Source of the DNA: Corallococcus macrosporus DSM 14697
GTDB taxonomy: Bacteria > Myxococcota > Myxococcia > Myxococcales > Myxococcaceae
Assembly (NCBI RefSeq): GCF_002305895.1
Contig: NZ_CP022203.1
Coordinates: 5,800,001 to 5,864,000, forward strand
Length of the DNA stretch: 64,000 bases
Direction of reading: 5' to 3'
Position numbers and translations under genes: made by a program
Part shown: piece after piece, positions 10,926 through 25,792 of the stretch
Layout: the number at the start of each line of letters is the position of its first letter
How positions within the stretch are numbered: the first letter of the stretch is position 1
The notes under the pieces: model-generated
What the model saw: only the letters and a program-made list of their open reading frames with translations
Databases searched by the model: none
What the model was told of the DNA's origin: nothing

Positions 10926-12706
10926 GCCGCGCCTCGCTCCGAGGAGCCCTCCGTCTGCATCCGCCACAGCGCCGCGTAGCGCCCATCCCGCTTCAGCAGC
11001 TCCGCGTGCGAGCCGCTCTCGACGACGCGCCCCGCCTCCATCACGTTGAGGACGTCCGCGGTCACCACCGTCGACAGCCGGTGCGCAATCACCAGGGCCG
11101 TGCGGCCCGGGAGCACCGCCGCCAACGCGGCCTGGACCTCGCGCTCGCTCTCGGGGTCGAGGCTGCTCGTCGCCTCGTCCAGCACCAGCACCGGGGCCCG
11201 CGCCAGCACCGCGCGGGCGATGCACAGCCGCTGACGCTGGCCGCCGCTGAGCGCCACGCCCCGCTCGCCGATGCGCGTGTCATAGCCCTCCGGCAGCGCG
11301 CGGATGAAGCCGTCCGCGTGCGCCACCTTCGCCGCCGCCTCCACCTCTTCCCGCGTGGCGTCCGGCCGCGCGTAGCGCAGGTTGTCCAGCACCGTGCCGT
11401 GGAACAGCAGCGGCTCCTGCGTCACCAGCGCGAACTGCGCGCGGACGCTCGCGGCCGTGTACCGGTCCGCGTCCACCCCATCCACGAGGAGCTGGCCCTT
11501 CTGGGGCTTCTCGAAGCGCAGCAACAGCGACGTCACCGTGCTCTTGCCGCCGCCGCTGCCACCCACCAGCGCCGTCACCTGGCCCGCCTTCAGCTCCAGC
11601 GCCAGGCCGTCCAGCGCGGGGCGCTCTCCGTAGGCGAAGCGCACGCCCTCGAACTGGATGCTCCGGGACAGGGGCGGCGCGGGCACCGCGTCCGGCGCGT
11701 CCTCCACCGGGTGCTTCATGTCGAGCAGCGCGAAGAGGCGCTCGCCCGCCGCGCCCGCCTGCACCGCGAACTGCGTCACCCGGCCCAGGTCCTTCACCGG
11801 CTGGTACACCAGGATGACCGCCGTCAGCAGCGACAGCAGCGCCTCCGGCTCCAGCAGCTTCGCCCCCGCGGCATAGGCCAGCGCCCCCGCCAGGGCCGCC
11901 GCGGCCAGCACCTCCATCAACCCCGGCACCGCGCCCCGCGCCCACGCCGCGCTCACCACGGCCTTCTCGTGCGCCTTCGCGAAGACCGAGAAGCGGGCCA
12001 GCTCCGCCTCCTGGCCATTGAAGGCCTGGATGGTGCGCAGGCCGCCCAGGCCCTCGTGGAGCTGCCCGGCCAGGTTGCCGAGCTGCGTCTGGCCTTCCCG
12101 CGTGCGCTTGAGCACCTTGCGCGTCAGCTTCGAGGCCGGGAGCGCCGCGAGCGGTATCACCAGCAACATGAGGCCGCCCAGCAAGGGGCTCATGGAGAGC
12201 GCCACGCCCGCCAGGATGATGACCTGGAGGCTGTCGCGCAGGTACGAGCCCACCGTGTACATGGCCGCCGCTTCCACGGCGCTGACGTCCGAGGTGAAGC
12301 GGCTGAGCAGGTCACCCATCCGCTCGCGCGCGAGCTGGGCTGGCGACAGCGCGGTGAGCCGCCGGAACAGGTCGCGCCGCAGGTCCTTCACCACGCGCTG
12401 CGCGAACAGGCCCATGAAGTAGAACTGCGCCAGGTACCCCACGCCCTTCACCGCGCCGACGAGGACCATCACCAGCGGGAAGCCCCACAGCGCCGCCTCG
12501 CGCGGCAGGTCCGCCAGCCAGGGCACGTGCTGGGCGCTGGCGAAGCCCTCTTCACCGCCCGACAGCAGGAAGCGCAGCGCCGGGCCCGTGAGGTAGGCAT
12601 ACGCGCCCGTCGTGAGGCCCACCGCCGCCATGCCGACGAAGGCCAGGAGGAGCACACCGAAATGCGGGCGCGCATAGCGCAGCAGCCGCCAGAGAACCGT
12701 CTGCAT
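10922..12706 (-). CDS. MsbA-like ABC exporter (fused permease-ATPase)
   Basis: A 594-residue half transporter with six membrane segments in the first 310 residues and a C-terminal ATPase. The ATPase has Walker A VGGSGGGKST, signature LSGGQRQRL, Walker B LVLDEATSSLD and H-loop IAHRLS. The location between lipid A/core genes makes lipid A-core flipping (MsbA role) the best guess. The family also contains drug and peptide exporters. The start is ATG 12706, two bases after the stop of the preceding gene; a long frame upstream to 13519 is only overlap. The partial sequence does not prove MsbA identity. Confidence 0.85.
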   Translation of the reverse strand: MQTVLWRLLRYARPHFGVLLLAFVGMAAVGLTTGAYAYLTGPALRFLLSGGEEGFASAQHVPWLADLPREAALWGFPLVMVLVGAVKGVGYLAQFYFMGLFAQRVVKDLRRDLFRRLTALSPAQLARERMGDLLSRFTSDVSAVEAAAMYTVGSYLRDSLQVIILAGVALSMSPLLGGLMLLVIPLAALPASKLTRKVLKRTREGQTQLGNLAGQLHEGLGGLRTIQAFNGQEAELARFSVFAKAHEKAVVSAAWARGAVPGLMEVLAAAALAGALAYAAGAKLLEPEALLSLLTAVILVYQPVKDLGRVTQFAVQAGAAGERLFALLDMKHPVEDAPDAVPAPPLSRSIQFEGVRFAYGERPALDGLALELKAGQVTALVGGSGGGKSTVTSLLLRFEKPQKGQLLVDGVDADRYTAASVRAQFALVTQEPLLFHGTVLDNLRYARPDATREEVEAAAKVAHADGFIRALPEGYDTRIGERGVALSGGQRQRLCIARAVLARAPVLVLDEATSSLDPESEREVQAALAAVLPGRTALVIAHRLSTVVTADVLNVMEAGRVVESGSHAELLKRDGRYAALWRMQTEGSSERGAA

Positions 12707-12708
12707 GG

Positions 12709-14592
12709 CTAACGTCCCACCTTGCGCAGCGCCGCCTTCGCGAGCTGGGAGTACGGGTTGTACTCCAGCACCCGCAGCAGCTTCTTCCGCGCCAGCGGCG
12801 CGTCGCCCAGGTCCATGTCGATGATGGCGGAGATGAGGTGCAACCGCTCCACGTACGGGCCCAGCGACAGCGCCCGCTTCAACACCTGCTGTGCCTTCTG
12901 CGCCCGAACCACCAGCGCCCCCGTGGGCCTCCGGTACGTCGCCCAGGCGAGGAAGGGGTAGTACTCCGGCTCGTCCGGGTTGAGCGACACCGCTTCCTCG
13001 AAGGCCTTGGCCGCCGTGGGATAGTCCTGGCGCTTCAGGGCGGACGTTCCCCGGCGCAGGGCAATCTCCGCGTCCACCACCACCGCCGTGTTCCGCCCCA
13101 CGTCCATCCGGCTGAAGAGGTACTGGAGGTACGCCTTGCGCTTCTCCTCCACGCTCAGCACCCGGTAGGACGCGGACAGCCGGTCCTGCACCGACTCCAG
13201 CAGGTCCTTCAGGTCGGAGATGTCGAACTCGGCGTAGGTGTCCGGGTGAAAGCGCATCGCCGTCTCGTGGTAGGCGCGCTCCACCGCCTCCGCGTCCGCC
13301 GCGATGTCCAGGCCCAGGCCTCCGAAGTAGCTGCGGGTGATGATGCGCAGCGCCTCCTCGCGCAAGGAGGCCGCCGTCTCGGGAGGCAGCGTCTTGCGCT
13401 TGCGCGGGGCAATCCGGTCCGGCAACACCGCCGCGGACAGCACGTCCGAGCCCGTGGCCACGGGCGTGGCGGAGAACGTCACCCCGCCCGTCAGCTTCAG
13501 GAACCACAGCAGCGAGCACGCCATGCGCAGCTCGCCGCGCCCGTGCGCCAGCAGGTCCTTCAGCGCGATGCGGCCGTTGACCTGCATCACGACCTTCAGG
13601 TCATCCGTGTCCAGCGCCATGGCCTGCAGGTCGCGCCCGAACTCCTGCGAGCGCACCGGGTAGTCGCTCATGTGCGCGCGCAGCGAGGCCGCCATCACCT
13701 TCATGGGAAAGCAGCGGCGCGCGCCGTCCAGCACGGGGGCCAGCGGCGGCACCTCCACGGAGGCGACCTCCGACGTGAAGTCGTCGCCCGCGTAGAAGGC
13801 GTAGCGCCCCTCGCGCATGCCCAGCACGCGCTCCACCCGGTCGCGGTTGAAGTCGCGCAGGAGCTGCAGCAGCTCCTCGCCCGCCGCCTCCACGCCCGCG
13901 TCCGCGAGCGCCGCGCCAATGCGCAGCCCCGAGTCCAGCGCCTCCGCCACCCGCTGCGCCTGCTGCGCGTCCAGCGCGTTCCGGGCGAGCAGGAAGGCCG
14001 GCAGCGAGTCCGCCTTCGCCGTGGAGTCGTAGCTCACCGGCCCGCCACGGAGGAAGTACACGCGCCGGCTCAGGCCCCGGTGCGCCACCACGAGCACGCC
14101 GTCCCGGCGCAGCCGGTAGATGGAGTGCATCAGCGCGGGCAGGGGGTAGCCCTTCAGCTCGCCCGAGTTGACGGCGGGCCTGGACAGCGTGGCCGCCAGC
14201 CCGGAGAGCGGCACCGCCTGCGCCGCGCGCACCAGCGACTCCAGCCGGGGAACCAGCTCCCCCGGCTTGAGCGGGTCCGCGACGTAGGCGTTCACCTTGA
14301 GGTCCAGCACCGAGCTCACGCCGCGCGCGCGCCCCAGGTGCCCCTTGTCGATGGCGACGATGGGCACCCTGCCGCCCTGCCCGTGCCCGCGGATGAGGTG
14401 CACCACGTGCGCGCCCTCCACCCGCGGCAGGTCCACCGACAGCACCACCACGTCCGGGTTGTCCGCCGCGAAGTGCTCCAGCGCCGTCACCGGATCATTC
14501 ACCGCGCGAACGGTGTACCCTGCCTGGGAGAGCAGGCCTTTGAGGTGCTCGAGCGTGGGGGGATGGCTCTCGGCGAGCAGAAGCGTCTTCAA
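12709..14592 (-). CDS. Degenerate receiver + DUF4388 (PATAN) + J-like + TPR protein
   Basis: A 627-residue multidomain protein of a myxobacterial type. Residues 1-120 fold like a CheY receiver, but the phospho-acceptor position reads VVVLSVDLP, with Ser52 in place of Asp. The acidic pair near the N-terminus is reduced to AESHP. It is therefore probably not phosphorylated. A DUF4388/PATAN-like segment follows at about 145-230. At about 430-500 a J-like helix pair contains RFHPDTY (an HPD motif). The C-terminal 130 residues look like TPRs. The start is TTG 14592. It heads the LPS operon, so it may regulate or scaffold it; function is not known. Confidence 0.7.
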   Translation of the reverse strand: MKTLLLAESHPPTLEHLKGLLSQAGYTVRAVNDPVTALEHFAADNPDVVVLSVDLPRVEGAHVVHLIRGHGQGGRVPIVAIDKGHLGRARGVSSVLDLKVNAYVADPLKPGELVPRLESLVRAAQAVPLSGLAATLSRPAVNSGELKGYPLPALMHSIYRLRRDGVLVVAHRGLSRRVYFLRGGPVSYDSTAKADSLPAFLLARNALDAQQAQRVAEALDSGLRIGAALADAGVEAAGEELLQLLRDFNRDRVERVLGMREGRYAFYAGDDFTSEVASVEVPPLAPVLDGARRCFPMKVMAASLRAHMSDYPVRSQEFGRDLQAMALDTDDLKVVMQVNGRIALKDLLAHGRGELRMACSLLWFLKLTGGVTFSATPVATGSDVLSAAVLPDRIAPRKRKTLPPETAASLREEALRIITRSYFGGLGLDIAADAEAVERAYHETAMRFHPDTYAEFDISDLKDLLESVQDRLSASYRVLSVEEKRKAYLQYLFSRMDVGRNTAVVVDAEIALRRGTSALKRQDYPTAAKAFEEAVSLNPDEPEYYPFLAWATYRRPTGALVVRAQKAQQVLKRALSLGPYVERLHLISAIIDMDLGDAPLARKKLLRVLEYNPYSQLAKAALRKVGR

Positions 14593-18868: not shown

Positions 18869-20233
18869 TCAGCCCTCCCGGGGACCTGAGAGGCCATGGC
18901 GCTCGAGCAGGCGGCGGAGCTGCGTCCGGTGGAGGCCCATCGCCCGGGCCGTGGCGGCGACGTTCCCCCCGTTCTCCCGGAGCGCCGTCTCCAGCCGGGT
19001 CCGCTCGGCCTCGTCCAGCGGCTTGCCCTGGAGCGCGGCCCGACCTGGGGTGGCCGCGGACGCCACCTGTGGCTCCGCGAGCGGCGGGCCGAACACCGCG
19101 CCGGCGGTGGGGCTCAGGTGTCTCGCCTCGAGACGCGGCGCCTCGTGAAGCAGCGCCTCCTGGGCGGCGCTGCGCACCTCCACCCGGAGCTCGCGCACGT
19201 TGCCCGGCCAGGCCCTCAACAGGCAGGCCTCGTGGAAGCCCACGTGCACGGGCAGGCGCGGTGCGAGTTCCTCCAGGAAGCGCTCCACCAGGAAGGGCAC
19301 CTCCTCGGGGCGGCGGCGCATTGGCGGCAAGCCAACCTCCGGCCTGCCGAGGCGGAAGTAGAGGTCCTCGCGCATCCGGCCGCTGGCCACCTGCGCGCGC
19401 AGGTCCTTGTTCCCGGCGGAGCACACCCGCACGTCCACCTTCCGCGGCCGGGAGCCCCCCAGGGGGAGGACCTCTCCCGTCTCCAGCGCGCGCAGCAGCT
19501 TGGCCTGCACGGCCAGCTCCAGCTCGGCCACCTCGTCCAGGAACAACGTCCCGCCGTCCGCGGCCTGGAGGTAGCCCTCCGCGTCATCCGCGCCGGAGAA
19601 GGCGCCGCGCCGCGCGCCGAAGAGGAGCCTTTCGGCGAGCCCCTGCGGAATGGCCGCGCAGTTGACGGCCACGAAGGGCCCCGACGCGCGCGGCCCGCGC
19701 TCATGGAACGCGCGGGCCACGCCTTCCTTGCCGGTGCCGCTCTCCCCGTGGACGTGCAACGTGAAGCCGTGCTCCGCCGTGCGCGCGACCTGGTCCAGCA
19801 GCCGCTGCATCGCGGGCCCGCGCACGAAGTCGCGCGTCCTGACGACGCCGCGCCGGGCCACCGGCCCCACGTCCGCGCAGGGAACAAAGAGCGAGTCCCC
19901 CATGCGGATGACACGCTGGGCCTCGCGGGGCGCTCCCGCCACCAGGGGTGCCCCGTCCACGAACGTGCCATTCTGGCTGCCCTGGTCGGTGACCCAGAAG
20001 CGGCGGCCGTCGTACCGGACCTGTGCGTGGCTGCGAGACATCCGAGGGTCCTGGTGCGTCCCCAGCGAAGCGGCGCCCCGCCCCAGCAACAGCTCGCCGT
20101 CGAGCGGCAGGGCCTCGGCCATCGCGCTCCCCGCGCACAGGACGCGCAGCAGGCCCGGCACCGGGGCCTCGCCGGAGTCCGCCCCCCGCCCCGTGGCGTC
20201 GCTCTGCTGCAAGGTCGACCGGTCGTGTTCCAT
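18869..20233 (-). CDS. FHA-domain sigma-54 enhancer-binding activator
   Basis: A 454-residue transcription activator. Residues 30-120 form an FHA domain (GRGAASLG, RMSRSHAQV, GSQNGTFVDG) that in this family binds phospho-threonine. The AAA+ domain has Walker A GESGTGKE (163-170), GAFSGA (210-215) in place of GAFTGA, Walker B TLFLDE, and the arginine-rich REDLYFRL. A Fis-type helix-turn-helix lies at 423-445. A good GGAGG site precedes ATG 20233. FHA activators are a recognised myxobacterial class linking Ser/Thr kinases to sigma-54 genes. Both neighbouring plus-strand lipoprotein genes have GG-N10-GC promoters, so they are likely targets. Confidence 0.92.
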   Translation of the reverse strand: MEHDRSTLQQSDATGRGADSGEAPVPGLLRVLCAGSAMAEALPLDGELLLGRGAASLGTHQDPRMSRSHAQVRYDGRRFWVTDQGSQNGTFVDGAPLVAGAPREAQRVIRMGDSLFVPCADVGPVARRGVVRTRDFVRGPAMQRLLDQVARTAEHGFTLHVHGESGTGKEGVARAFHERGPRASGPFVAVNCAAIPQGLAERLLFGARRGAFSGADDAEGYLQAADGGTLFLDEVAELELAVQAKLLRALETGEVLPLGGSRPRKVDVRVCSAGNKDLRAQVASGRMREDLYFRLGRPEVGLPPMRRRPEEVPFLVERFLEELAPRLPVHVGFHEACLLRAWPGNVRELRVEVRSAAQEALLHEAPRLEARHLSPTAGAVFGPPLAEPQVASAATPGRAALQGKPLDEAERTRLETALRENGGNVAATARAMGLHRTQLRRLLERHGLSGPREG

Positions 20234-20259
20234 GTGCCTCCATCCTACGCGTGTGTCAC

Positions 20260-20292
20260 TGGCACACGGCACCGTGCCACGGGCCGTGCCAC
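20260..20292. promoter_or_regulatory. GGCAC/GTGCC inverted-repeat cluster (candidate activator site)
   Basis: TGGCACA (20260-20266), CGTGCCA (20273-20279) and GTGCCAC (20286-20292) lie in the 186-base divergent gap. The embedded GGCACCGTGCC is a perfect 11-base palindrome with a central C. It is about 60-95 bases upstream of the sigma-54-type promoter, where activators bind, and 27 bases before the activator's own ATG. A similar set lies at 24804-24848. Confidence 0.6.
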
Positions 20293-20353
20293 CCGGGCCT
20301 CCGCCTCCGCGGCGCTCCGCCGTGACGCCCCGTGTACAGGACCGGGCCGCTGC

Positions 20354-20369
20354 TGGCATGCCCCTCGCT
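20354..20369 (+). promoter_or_regulatory. Sigma-54-type promoter of the lipoprotein gene
   Basis: TGGCATGCCCCTCGCT has GG at 20355-20356 and GC at 20367-20368 with exactly 10 bases between. It differs from TGGCAYRNNNNTTGCW at one position (TC instead of TT). It lies 51 bases before the GTG start at 20420. Confidence 0.6.
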
Positions 20370-20419
20370 ATGGCGCGGAGCCGGACCACGGCACGCGCCG
20401 TCACTTCGAGGAGACACCT

Positions 20420-21535
20420 GTGCTCAACACCTTCCCCATCTGGCTCATGGGCCCGCTGCTGCTGGCCTTCGCCGCGGGCTGCACCCTCCCCCTGAAGGAT
20501 GCAAAGCCCCCCATCGGCGCCCGCCCGGATTCCCCGTCCGGCGGCGGGAGCTGTCCGACGGGACAGTGCGACCCCGACCCGAACGGCCTGGGCATCTATG
20601 TCGCCGAGGGGCACAACTACTGCTTCTTGCATGAGAGGACGCCAGCGGCGTGCCTGGAGGGCTTCGTCAATACCCCCGAGGGCGTGGCGCTGCGCGTGCG
20701 CTCCATGTACCAGAAGGACCAGACGCTCCAGTTGCCCCTGCACCTCCGGAATCCGACCAGGCCCGCCGGCGGTGAGGCCCCTCCGGCGCTGGAAGCCATT
20801 CACGGCAACGTCGGCGACTTCTTCGTCGCCATCCGTCAGGGGGACAAGGCCCTGAAGCTGCGAGGCGAGGCGGTGTCGGGGCTGGTGTTCGGGTTCAGGC
20901 TCCCGGTGGACCTGGACGGCACCGGCAACCTGGAGGGCCTCCTCTATGAGCTGGCGCTGGAGCCCGTGTCCGGCAACCGCCTCGCCGTGCGCTACCGGGC
21001 CGCTCCCAGCACCGGCTGGCTGGAGCAGTGCCTGTCGCCAGAGGGACGGGCCGTCGCGTCCGTCCTCCTCCCCCAGCGCCAGGTCGACGGGCTGAACGCC
21101 GCGGTGCGGCCCCACGACGAAACCCTCACCGTGGCCTGTGAGACGGGCGCGATCGCCACCTGCATGGATTGGGGCTACCAGCCGTGGACACCCGACACGC
21201 GCCAGACCGACCCGGACCGGGAGTTCGTCTTCGGCGCCTGCCTCCAGGCCAAGCGCGCCGCCTACTTCGTGGGCCAGGGAGACCTGCGCACGTACACCGT
21301 CAGCGGCACGGAGATTCTCCGGCGCGACGCCCACGGGTTCGGGCGAGACAGCAACGACGATTTGCAGGAGCTCGAGTACCTGGAGGCCCTGTGGAGCCCC
21401 CGGGGCGCGGAGTGCCTCAACCTGGCGAACCGTCGCGGCAAGGCGCCCATCCCGAATGGCCTCACGCTCCCTTCCTGCGCGCCGTCGCCCAAGTGGAGTT
21501 CCCAGGCGCGGCTCGCGACGGGCGTGGGGCAGCCC

Positions 21536-21547
<12 letters not shown>
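20420..21547 (+). CDS. Large hypothetical lipoprotein (ADYC-like layout)
   Basis: A 375-residue exported protein. GTG 20420 follows a CGAGGAG ribosome-binding site. The signal ends in LLLAFAAGC, a clear lipobox with cysteine 21. A glycine/proline linker with SCPTGQC follows. The body has about ten more cysteines, including NYCFLHE, VACETGAIATCMDWGYQPW and FGACLQAKRAAYFVGQGDL. The last segment resembles the myxobacterial ADYC-domain family, although ADYC itself reads AAYF here; this match is from memory and is tentative. Its promoter is sigma-54-like and next to the FHA activator gene, so expression is probably controlled by it. Function unknown. Confidence 0.8.
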
Positions 21548-24766
<3,219 letters not shown>

Positions 24767-24803
24767 GGACAAAGCCTATCAAACGCATACATGCGGAGCA
24801 CGG

Positions 24804-24848
24804 TGGCACACCGCGGCCTGTGCCAACGTGCCACGCGCGGCGGTGCCA
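24804..24848. promoter_or_regulatory. Palindromic TGGCACA-N8-TGTGCCA plus extra half-sites
   Basis: TGGCACA (24804-24810) and TGTGCCA (24819-24825) form a perfect inverted repeat with an 8-base GC spacer. Further half-sites are GTGCCAC (24828-24834) and GTGCCA (24843-24848). It lies 75 bases before the sigma-54-type element and 38 bases before the kinase ATG. It shares its half-site with 20260-20292, so one protein may bind both. Confidence 0.65.
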
Positions 24849-24908
24849 TCGCCGTGGGCCGCGCCCCGCCCCAGACGGAGCCGCGAGGCCGCACGGCCCA
24901 GGCGCGGA

Positions 24909-24924
24909 CGGCATGCGCATTGCT
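24909..24924 (+). promoter_or_regulatory. Sigma-54-type promoter of the tri-repeat lipoprotein gene
   Basis: CGGCATGCGCATTGCT matches TGGCAYRNNNNTTGCW at all fixed positions except the first. GG at 24910-24911 and GC at 24922-24923 are 10 bases apart. It lies 89 bases before the ATG at 25013. Confidence 0.65.
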
Positions 24925-25012
24925 CATGGGGAGACACGGCCAGGACGCGTGCATGGCCCTTCGCCACATGCGCCACGCCGTTTCAACCACTCACCCAACA
25001 GGAAGCCCCACC

Positions 25013-25792
25013 ATGTCCAAGCTGCGTCACGCACTCATCGCCCTGTCCATGCCCGCCGTCCTCTGGGGCTGCGGCCCCGAGGACCTGACGGACGTCACCG
25101 CCGAGCCGCCGGCCGCGCAGGACCTGCTCACGCAGGGGCAGGAGCTGACCACGGCCAACATCTACACGTGGTCGCAGGGCAACATCGCCACGCCCATGGG
25201 CACGACGACGAACCGGACCTGCTACCTCATGCGCGTGGGCGGCGACTTCGAGGGGGGCGGTGAGCGGGTCGACATCTTCCAGACGGGCGGCTCCTGGTAC
25301 CTGGGCGGCAACTCGTCGCAGACGGGCATCAACGGCGCCGCGGGCTGCATCAACGTGGCGGACACGGGCACCGAGTACACGTGGACCCAATCGTCGAGCT
25401 ACCCCACCTACCTGGGCTCTTCGACCAACCGCGTGTGCTACCTGACGGGCGTCGCGGGCAAGTTCCACGGCTCCGGCGAGTGGGTCCACGTCTATGAGAC
25501 GGCCGGGAGCTGGTACATGACGGGCAACTCCAGCCAGAGCGGCGTGCGGGCGCGCGCGCGCTGCATCAACCTGGGCGCTGGCGGCACGTTCAGCTCGGAG
25601 TACACGTGGAGCCAGGGCAACTCGGCCACGGCGCTGGGTGGCACCTCGAACCGCTCCTGCGCCCTGACGTTCGTCCGGGGCAAGTTCGAGGGCGGCGGGG
25701 AGTACGTCCGCACCTACCAGGCGGGCGGCTCGTGGTACCTCGGCGGCGCCTCGGGGCAGAAGGACGTGTCCGCCCGCGCGCGCTGCTTCTAG
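25013..25792 (+). CDS. Tri-repeat cysteine-paired lipoprotein
   Basis: A 259-residue exported protein of no recognised family. The signal ends LWGC, with lipobox cysteine 20. Three repeats follow at about 50-113, 121-186 and 196-259. Each has the pattern YTWSQ, then TNRxCxL, GxFxGxGE, GSWYxxG and ARC. Each holds exactly two cysteines 42 residues apart: 70/112, 142/184 and 216/258. This strongly suggests one disulphide per repeat and a beta-rich fold. AGGAAG precedes the ATG. The promoter is sigma-54-like. It stands beside the kinase gene on the opposite strand. A binding or surface role is plausible; no function is assigned. Confidence 0.85.
   Translation: MSKLRHALIALSMPAVLWGCGPEDLTDVTAEPPAAQDLLTQGQELTTANIYTWSQGNIATPMGTTTNRTCYLMRVGGDFEGGGERVDIFQTGGSWYLGGNSSQTGINGAAGCINVADTGTEYTWTQSSSYPTYLGSSTNRVCYLTGVAGKFHGSGEWVHVYETAGSWYMTGNSSQSGVRARARCINLGAGGTFSSEYTWSQGNSATALGGTSNRSCALTFVRGKFEGGGEYVRTYQAGGSWYLGGASGQKDVSARARCF

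Follow-up and report, generated by a model that had tools for sequence, protein, structure and literature searches.

The 64-kb window analysed here (bases 5800001-5864000 of one 8,973,512-bp contig of the roughly 9-Mb genome of Corallococcus macrosporus DSM 14697, a predatory soil bacterium) contains four genes on alternating strands that probably form a self-contained signalling cassette running from periplasm to promoter, with a swappable exported output: an FHA-domain activator of sigma-54 promoters (enhancer-binding protein, EBP, minus strand), an ADYC-domain lipoprotein (LP1, plus strand), a Hanks kinase with a large extracytoplasmic region (KIN, minus strand) and a second lipoprotein (LP2, plus strand). 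Conserved gene order, co-divergence of the proteins, and predicted operators and promoters footprinted by sequence conservation support the view that this kinase-activator pair is locally wired to two exported proteins. A preliminary description of the sequence had proposed a kinase-activator module with two exported targets; the module stands, but LP2 is swapped between species, and LP1 is likelier to be a partner of the kinase.

Gene content and conservation of the cassette

Domain searches and reading of the open reading frames (ORFs), from which the gene starts were picked, place all four genes at the coordinates and on the strands previously assigned to them. EBP (18869-20233, minus strand, 454 amino acids) has the expected FHA, AAA+ (sigma-54 interaction) and Fis-type helix-turn-helix domains, with Pfam matches to FHA (PF00498, 9e-11), Sigma54_activat (PF00158, 2.6e-55) and HTH_8 (5e-8). 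Its start is the ATG at 20233; a longer ORF, to 21334, represents read-through on the strand opposite LP1. The FHA residues GR, SRxHA and NGT are present in 24 of 24 aligned EBPs, in which the residues of a phosphothreonine reader appear intact, and the Walker A (GESGTGKE) and Walker B (GGTLFLDE) motifs of the AAA+ domain are conserved among the aligned proteins as well. KIN (21536-24766, minus strand, 1076 amino acids, the ORF overlapping the 3' end of LP1 by 12 bp) matches Pkinase (PF00069, 4.4e-41) at residues 42-296, followed by a single hydrophobic segment (residues 328-346) and about 730 residues with TPR matches, according to a transmembrane scan and Pfam; this agrees with the earlier description of a complete Hanks kinase that has a single membrane helix and a long TPR-like tail. 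The P-loop, catalytic Lys, HRD, DFG and activation loop are intact in all 18 cassette kinases.

When 61 related genomes were searched for relatives of EBP and the loci around close matches were compared, close relatives (61-94% identical) were all found within the same genus group, the one containing the Myxococcus xanthus AM003, M. vastator and M. eversor records. In all related loci whose contigs extend far enough, EBP, the ADYC lipoprotein and the TPR kinase adjoin on alternating strands and in the same order, including those with EBPs of only 61% identity. Two contigs (L044 and L045) stop inside the cassette, a more distant EBP (L063, 51% identical) is found without LP1, and several genomes of the same genus have no close EBP relative (best E ~1e-62), so the cassette is not universal. 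Locus counts here and below are based on simple, purpose-built hidden Markov models, and some contigs end close by. Pairwise protein distances co-vary (r = 0.93 for EBP and KIN, r = 0.87 for EBP and LP1, 153 pairs), to which shared species history contributes, and LP1 diverges faster between species than EBP and KIN. Of the four-gene linkage that had been anticipated, the syntenic EBP-LP1-KIN trio is conserved but the LP2 gene is not, although the regulated slot that it occupies is usually kept. Some genomes carry multiple cassettes, and one (G013) has three (L047, L055 and L058). The record BNCN01000006.1, titled 'Comamonas sp. KCTC 72670', holds a whole myxobacterial cassette, and its title looks wrong.

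For nine of the 14 FHA-domain EBPs encoded in the genome, the surrounding region includes a kinase ORF; for the other five it does not. EBP lies beside KIN here, but FHA activators paired with kinases are not special to this locus.

Predicted operators and promoters in the divergent intergenic regions

Each lipoprotein gene is preceded by a predicted operator cluster and a -24/-12 element. Cluster 1 (20261-20290; GGCAC at 20261 and 20268, GTGCC at 20274 and 20286) lies upstream of the LP1 element CTGGCATGCCCCTCGCT (20353-20369, plus strand, with GG at 20355), and cluster 2 (24805-24847; GGCAC at 24805, GTGCC at 24820, 24828 and 24843) lies upstream of the LP2 element ACGGCATGCGCATTGCT (24908-24924, plus strand, with GG at 24910, consensus score 10). 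The earlier observation that GG-N10-GC elements stand behind GTGCC/GGCAC clusters at both lipoprotein genes is thus confirmed, and both kinds of element are footprinted in both divergent regions of the related loci.

On the EBP side, GTGCC/GGCAC occurs 85 times in 21 regions, versus 19.2 ± 3.9 (maximum 29) in dinucleotide shuffles, and on the KIN side 78 times in 20 regions, versus 23.3 ± 4.9 (maximum 36), which amounts to an approximately fourfold and threefold excess, respectively. All 21 EBP-side regions contain at least three copies within 60 bp, most commonly an inverted GGCAC followed by two direct GTGCC copies 12 bp apart, and the cluster is kept in most KIN-side regions. The half-site GTGCC is followed by A in 62% of copies and preceded by T in 45%. 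Chance or GC bias as the source of these repeats is ruled out by the shuffles together with the footprinting.

Scored against a simple consensus, the -24/-12 element of LP1 alone reaches at least 11 of 13 when both strands of the window are considered; 17 other sites score 10. A site scoring at least 10 precedes 18 of 19 ADYC genes in cassette loci but 4 of the 45 ADYC genes elsewhere; among 4000 random regions, 418 have one. ADYC genes as general sigma-54 targets are therefore rejected, the frequency outside the cassette being the random rate of about 10%; among the 45, a score of 11 is reached only at L114, where an FHA-EBP is linked as well. Most KIN-side regions have a GG-N10-GC scoring at least 9 behind the operator cluster. 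Sigma-54 control of the regulators themselves was considered and rejected, as no conserved -24/-12 element in the divergent regions faces EBP or KIN. The predicted operators are close to the start codons of these genes in the window, at distances of about 28-57 bp upstream for EBP and about 39-81 bp for KIN, so bound EBP may also repress both regulatory genes.

The AAA+ L1 loop of the window EBP reads GAFSGA, and the loop is GAYSGA or GAFSGA in 21 of 21 cassette EBPs, whereas GAFTGA is kept in the paralogues at L055b, L114 and L115. GAFSGA is among the loop variants expected to retain activity, in a source that does not mention GAYSGA (PMC4641369). The LP1 promoters, for their part, often have TCGC or TGGC in place of the consensus TTGC. 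Activator loops reportedly make contact with promoter DNA around position -12 (PMC7057263), so the altered loop may be linked to these promoter variants.

When the genome was scanned with a strict pattern that combined a promoter with two GTGCC copies, three places matched, two of them at this locus; a reversed control gave six. A wide regulon with this strict pattern was not found, the matches being at or below the reversed control, although looser sites may exist. The third place (genome positions 2014848-2014928) may be a chance match.

The ADYC lipoprotein and the exported slot protein

LP1 (20420-21547, plus strand, 375 amino acids, lipobox ...LLLAFAAGC) matches the ADYC domain (PF20032) at 6.8e-23 and 82.1 bits, versus a cut-off of 27. 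The literal ADYC motif is not present in cassette members, which have AAYF in 18 of 18 readable cases; in a simple motif search outside the cassette, 32 of 45 proteins have ADYC and 12 have no readable motif. LP1 nevertheless belongs to the family because membership depends on the profile rather than on the motif that gave it its name. Both LP1 and LP2 have N-terminal signal peptides with a lipobox Cys, as read from the sequence, and predicted lipoboxes are kept in their relatives. No paper on the ADYC domain was found in a literature search.

ADYC genes are consistently neighbours of kinases. All four in the same genome adjoin one: the present cassette, L114 (EBP, KIN and ADYC in a row), L115 (EBP, ADYC, KIN) and L113 (KIN, ADYC). 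A kinase ORF is also close to ADYC in 40 of 40 further loci from other genomes, a non-random sample of the best-scoring matches on long contigs, and in L135, from another genus; two more loci (L136 and L137) are truncated where their contigs end, leaving 41 scored outside the cassette. For comparison, with 116 kinase-domain matches in the 9-Mb genome, about 0.2 would be expected by chance in 16 kb. Six of six kinases scanned outside the cassette have the architecture Pkinase-nSTAND1-FGE-sulfatase, with a transmembrane segment between nSTAND1 and FGE (that of L103 has an additional weak hydrophobic segment). Cassette kinases and these six alike have one main transmembrane segment and a large C-terminal region past it. 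Two kinase architectures thus have both an ADYC neighbour and a C-terminal region across the membrane, a pattern that suggests joint action of ADYC lipoprotein and kinase on the extracytoplasmic side. LP1 had been described as a dedicated output, and it does have its own operator and promoter, but because sampled ADYC genes adjoin Hanks kinases, most of them without sigma-54 elements, it is probably a kinase partner under feedback control rather than a mere output.

LP2 (25013-25792, plus strand, 259 amino acids, lipobox ...PAVLWGC, read directly) has no Pfam or NCBIfam match. It comprises three internal repeats with two conserved Cys in each, has orthologues in only five close named loci, and has no second copy elsewhere in its own genome. 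In other relatives the same position holds at least three unrelated exported proteins: a signal-peptide protein (AYRAYPAAGCTYETD) in L049-L051, another (ARTVAGWHGKPQLHADGAC) in L054, L055, L056, L059 and L062, and another lipoprotein in L060 and L061. None of three slot proteins scanned has a confident Pfam match, and an operator cluster and GG-N10-GC precede most slot occupants. In L048, L052, L057 and L058 no comparable exported gene was recognised by reading of ORF lists, and the KIN-side operator is gone (0-2 copies); a long divergent ORF that may encode a signal sequence is nevertheless present in L057 and L058. Judged from gene order and upstream sequence, LP2 is the local occupant of an apparently swappable output slot, in which the exported protein differs among species.

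A model of LP2 built from six sequences (predicted local distance difference test, pLDDT, 79.8 overall and about 90 over residues 50-259) aligns with the C-terminal domain of PCSK9 (VIA-align Z 12.7 over 182 residues, 3.3 Å, 10% identity) and with apicomplexan APC-beta domains (Z 5.6-6.2), the next unrelated fold scoring Z 3.8. Three beta-strand quasi-repeats are common to these domains and the LP2 model. Foldseek gives the same model a weak E of 2e-3 and low TM-scores, so the PCSK9 C-terminal-like fold is a good lead rather than proven. Unlike PCSK9 and APC-beta proteins, LP2 is a bacterial lipoprotein, and the likeness is one of predicted fold. A viral structure library searched with LP2 yielded nothing significant.

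The proposed circuit, its alternatives and known systems

Within the cassette reading we infer phosphorylation, FHA binding, operator binding, sigma-54 dependence, contact between LP1 and the kinase, and autorepression. The extracytoplasmic TPR region of KIN, probably together with LP1, would sense the state of the envelope, and the activated cytoplasmic kinase would phosphorylate a threonine on KIN itself or on EBP. The FHA domain of EBP would read this mark, and EBP would bind the clusters of GTGCCA half-sites in both of the regions between divergent genes, driving sigma-54 transcription both of LP1, as feedback on the partner of the kinase, and of the slot protein behind the kinase promoter (LP2 here, others in relatives). 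Several points weigh against this circuit. Kinase substrates need not be genomic neighbours; the LP1 structure model is poor (pLDDT 52, and no significant match in a fold search), so that LP1-kinase contact is argued from linkage alone; the spacing of GTGCC on the kinase side varies from 8 to 15 bp, which leaves the exact operator undefined; and because the reversed control exceeds the genome in the strict-pattern scan, the number of hits is no evidence and only their position counts, with a wider regulon of looser sites possible.

It is unlikely that LP1 serves simply as an output of the activator, with both lipoproteins acting as surface effectors and the kinase sensing through its TPR tail alone: the type of operator and promoter common to LP1 and LP2 and the faster divergence of LP1 fit such a role, but the adjacency of all sampled ADYC genes to Hanks kinases, mostly without EBP or sigma-54 sites, would be unneeded for a mere output. 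The numbers of FHA-EBPs and kinase-domain matches in the genome, and the five FHA-EBPs with no kinase ORF in their region, would suit a cassette that is a node of a shared network, in which other kinases also govern EBP and KIN also acts elsewhere; given the strict linkage and the co-divergence of EBP with KIN, this seems quite improbable. Hardly credible is an arrangement in which the operators serve only the autoregulation of EBP and KIN while the lipoproteins are under other control, for although the clusters are very near the start codons of both regulators, the conserved -24/-12 elements are oriented towards the lipoproteins, nothing comparably conserved is directed at EBP or KIN, and loci without a recognised exported gene also lack the operator on the KIN side. 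More tentatively, the cassette may be a duplicating unit in which kinase, activator and ADYC partner are constant, the ADYC protein closes a feedback loop on the kinase, and the exported cargo is swapped across species and paralogous cassettes; if so, the ADYC domain would define a general class of regulators that act on Hanks kinases from outside the cytoplasm.

FHA-domain enhancer-binding proteins of M. xanthus, reportedly described by Jelsbak et al. in 2005, have the same FHA, AAA+ and helix-turn-helix build as EBP; such activators of sigma-54 promoters are thought to read the output of Ser/Thr kinases. Unlike that class as a whole, the present cassette is fixed at three genes and has a footprinted operator, two local targets, a derived GAYSGA or GAFSGA loop and an ADYC lipoprotein. 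In myxobacteria, Hanks kinases number about a hundred and sigma-54 activators run to dozens, and to our knowledge the input and output of most of them are unknown. For M. xanthus, 99 Hanks kinases and 53 sigma-54 activators have been predicted (PMC4320627). With its defined kinase, reader, operator and two targets, the locus is a complete candidate wire, small enough for tests with a few strains, and the linkage of ADYC genes to kinases points to a family of possible extracytoplasmic partners for many more kinases.

The nearest known logic is that of PpkA and Fha, to which the cassette circuit would be analogous. In threonine phosphorylation of the type VI secretion system, the periplasmic RtkS or TagR is followed by the kinase PpkA and then the FHA protein Fha, the members of the pathway being TagQRST or RtkS, PpkA, Fha1 and PppA (PMC10482370). 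An extracytoplasmic partner, a membrane Hanks kinase and an FHA reader would be shared, as a likeness of logic; the output of that pathway is assembly of a secretion machine, whereas that of the cassette would be sigma-54 transcription, and no phosphatase was identified among the four cassette genes. The ADYC and Pkinase-nSTAND1-TM-FGE pairs of Myxococcota resemble the cassette in that an ADYC lipoprotein gene adjoins a Hanks kinase with one transmembrane segment, but differ in kinase architecture, in mostly having neither an EBP nor a -24/-12 element, and in the motif, which is canonical ADYC where one could be recognised and not AAYF. No comparable FHA-activator cassette was found in the literature searched, and as far as it shows, the fixed cassette, footprinted operator, swappable slot and ADYC link are new.

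Several other ADYC loci have features of their own. L114 (7606-15194) is a third module and encodes an FHA-EBP, an nSTAND1-FGE kinase and an ADYC protein, with a -24/-12 match (9095, score 11) directly before the ADYC gene. L115 (5975-12862; genome positions 7388974-7395861) is a second module in the genome of the window, with FHA-EBP, ADYC and kinase genes in a row; after them come the best-scoring -24/-12 site of the stretch (12355, score 12) and a gene for a small exported protein (12425-12862) with no Pfam match, which appeared avidin-like by eye, an assignment to which Pfam gives no support. The kinase ORF near the ADYC gene of L083 (4285-5907) is just 541 amino acids long and apparently interrupted in comparison with its relatives, and L104 (6435-8950) and L110 (6465-9014) each have a tandem pair of ADYC genes beside a single kinase.
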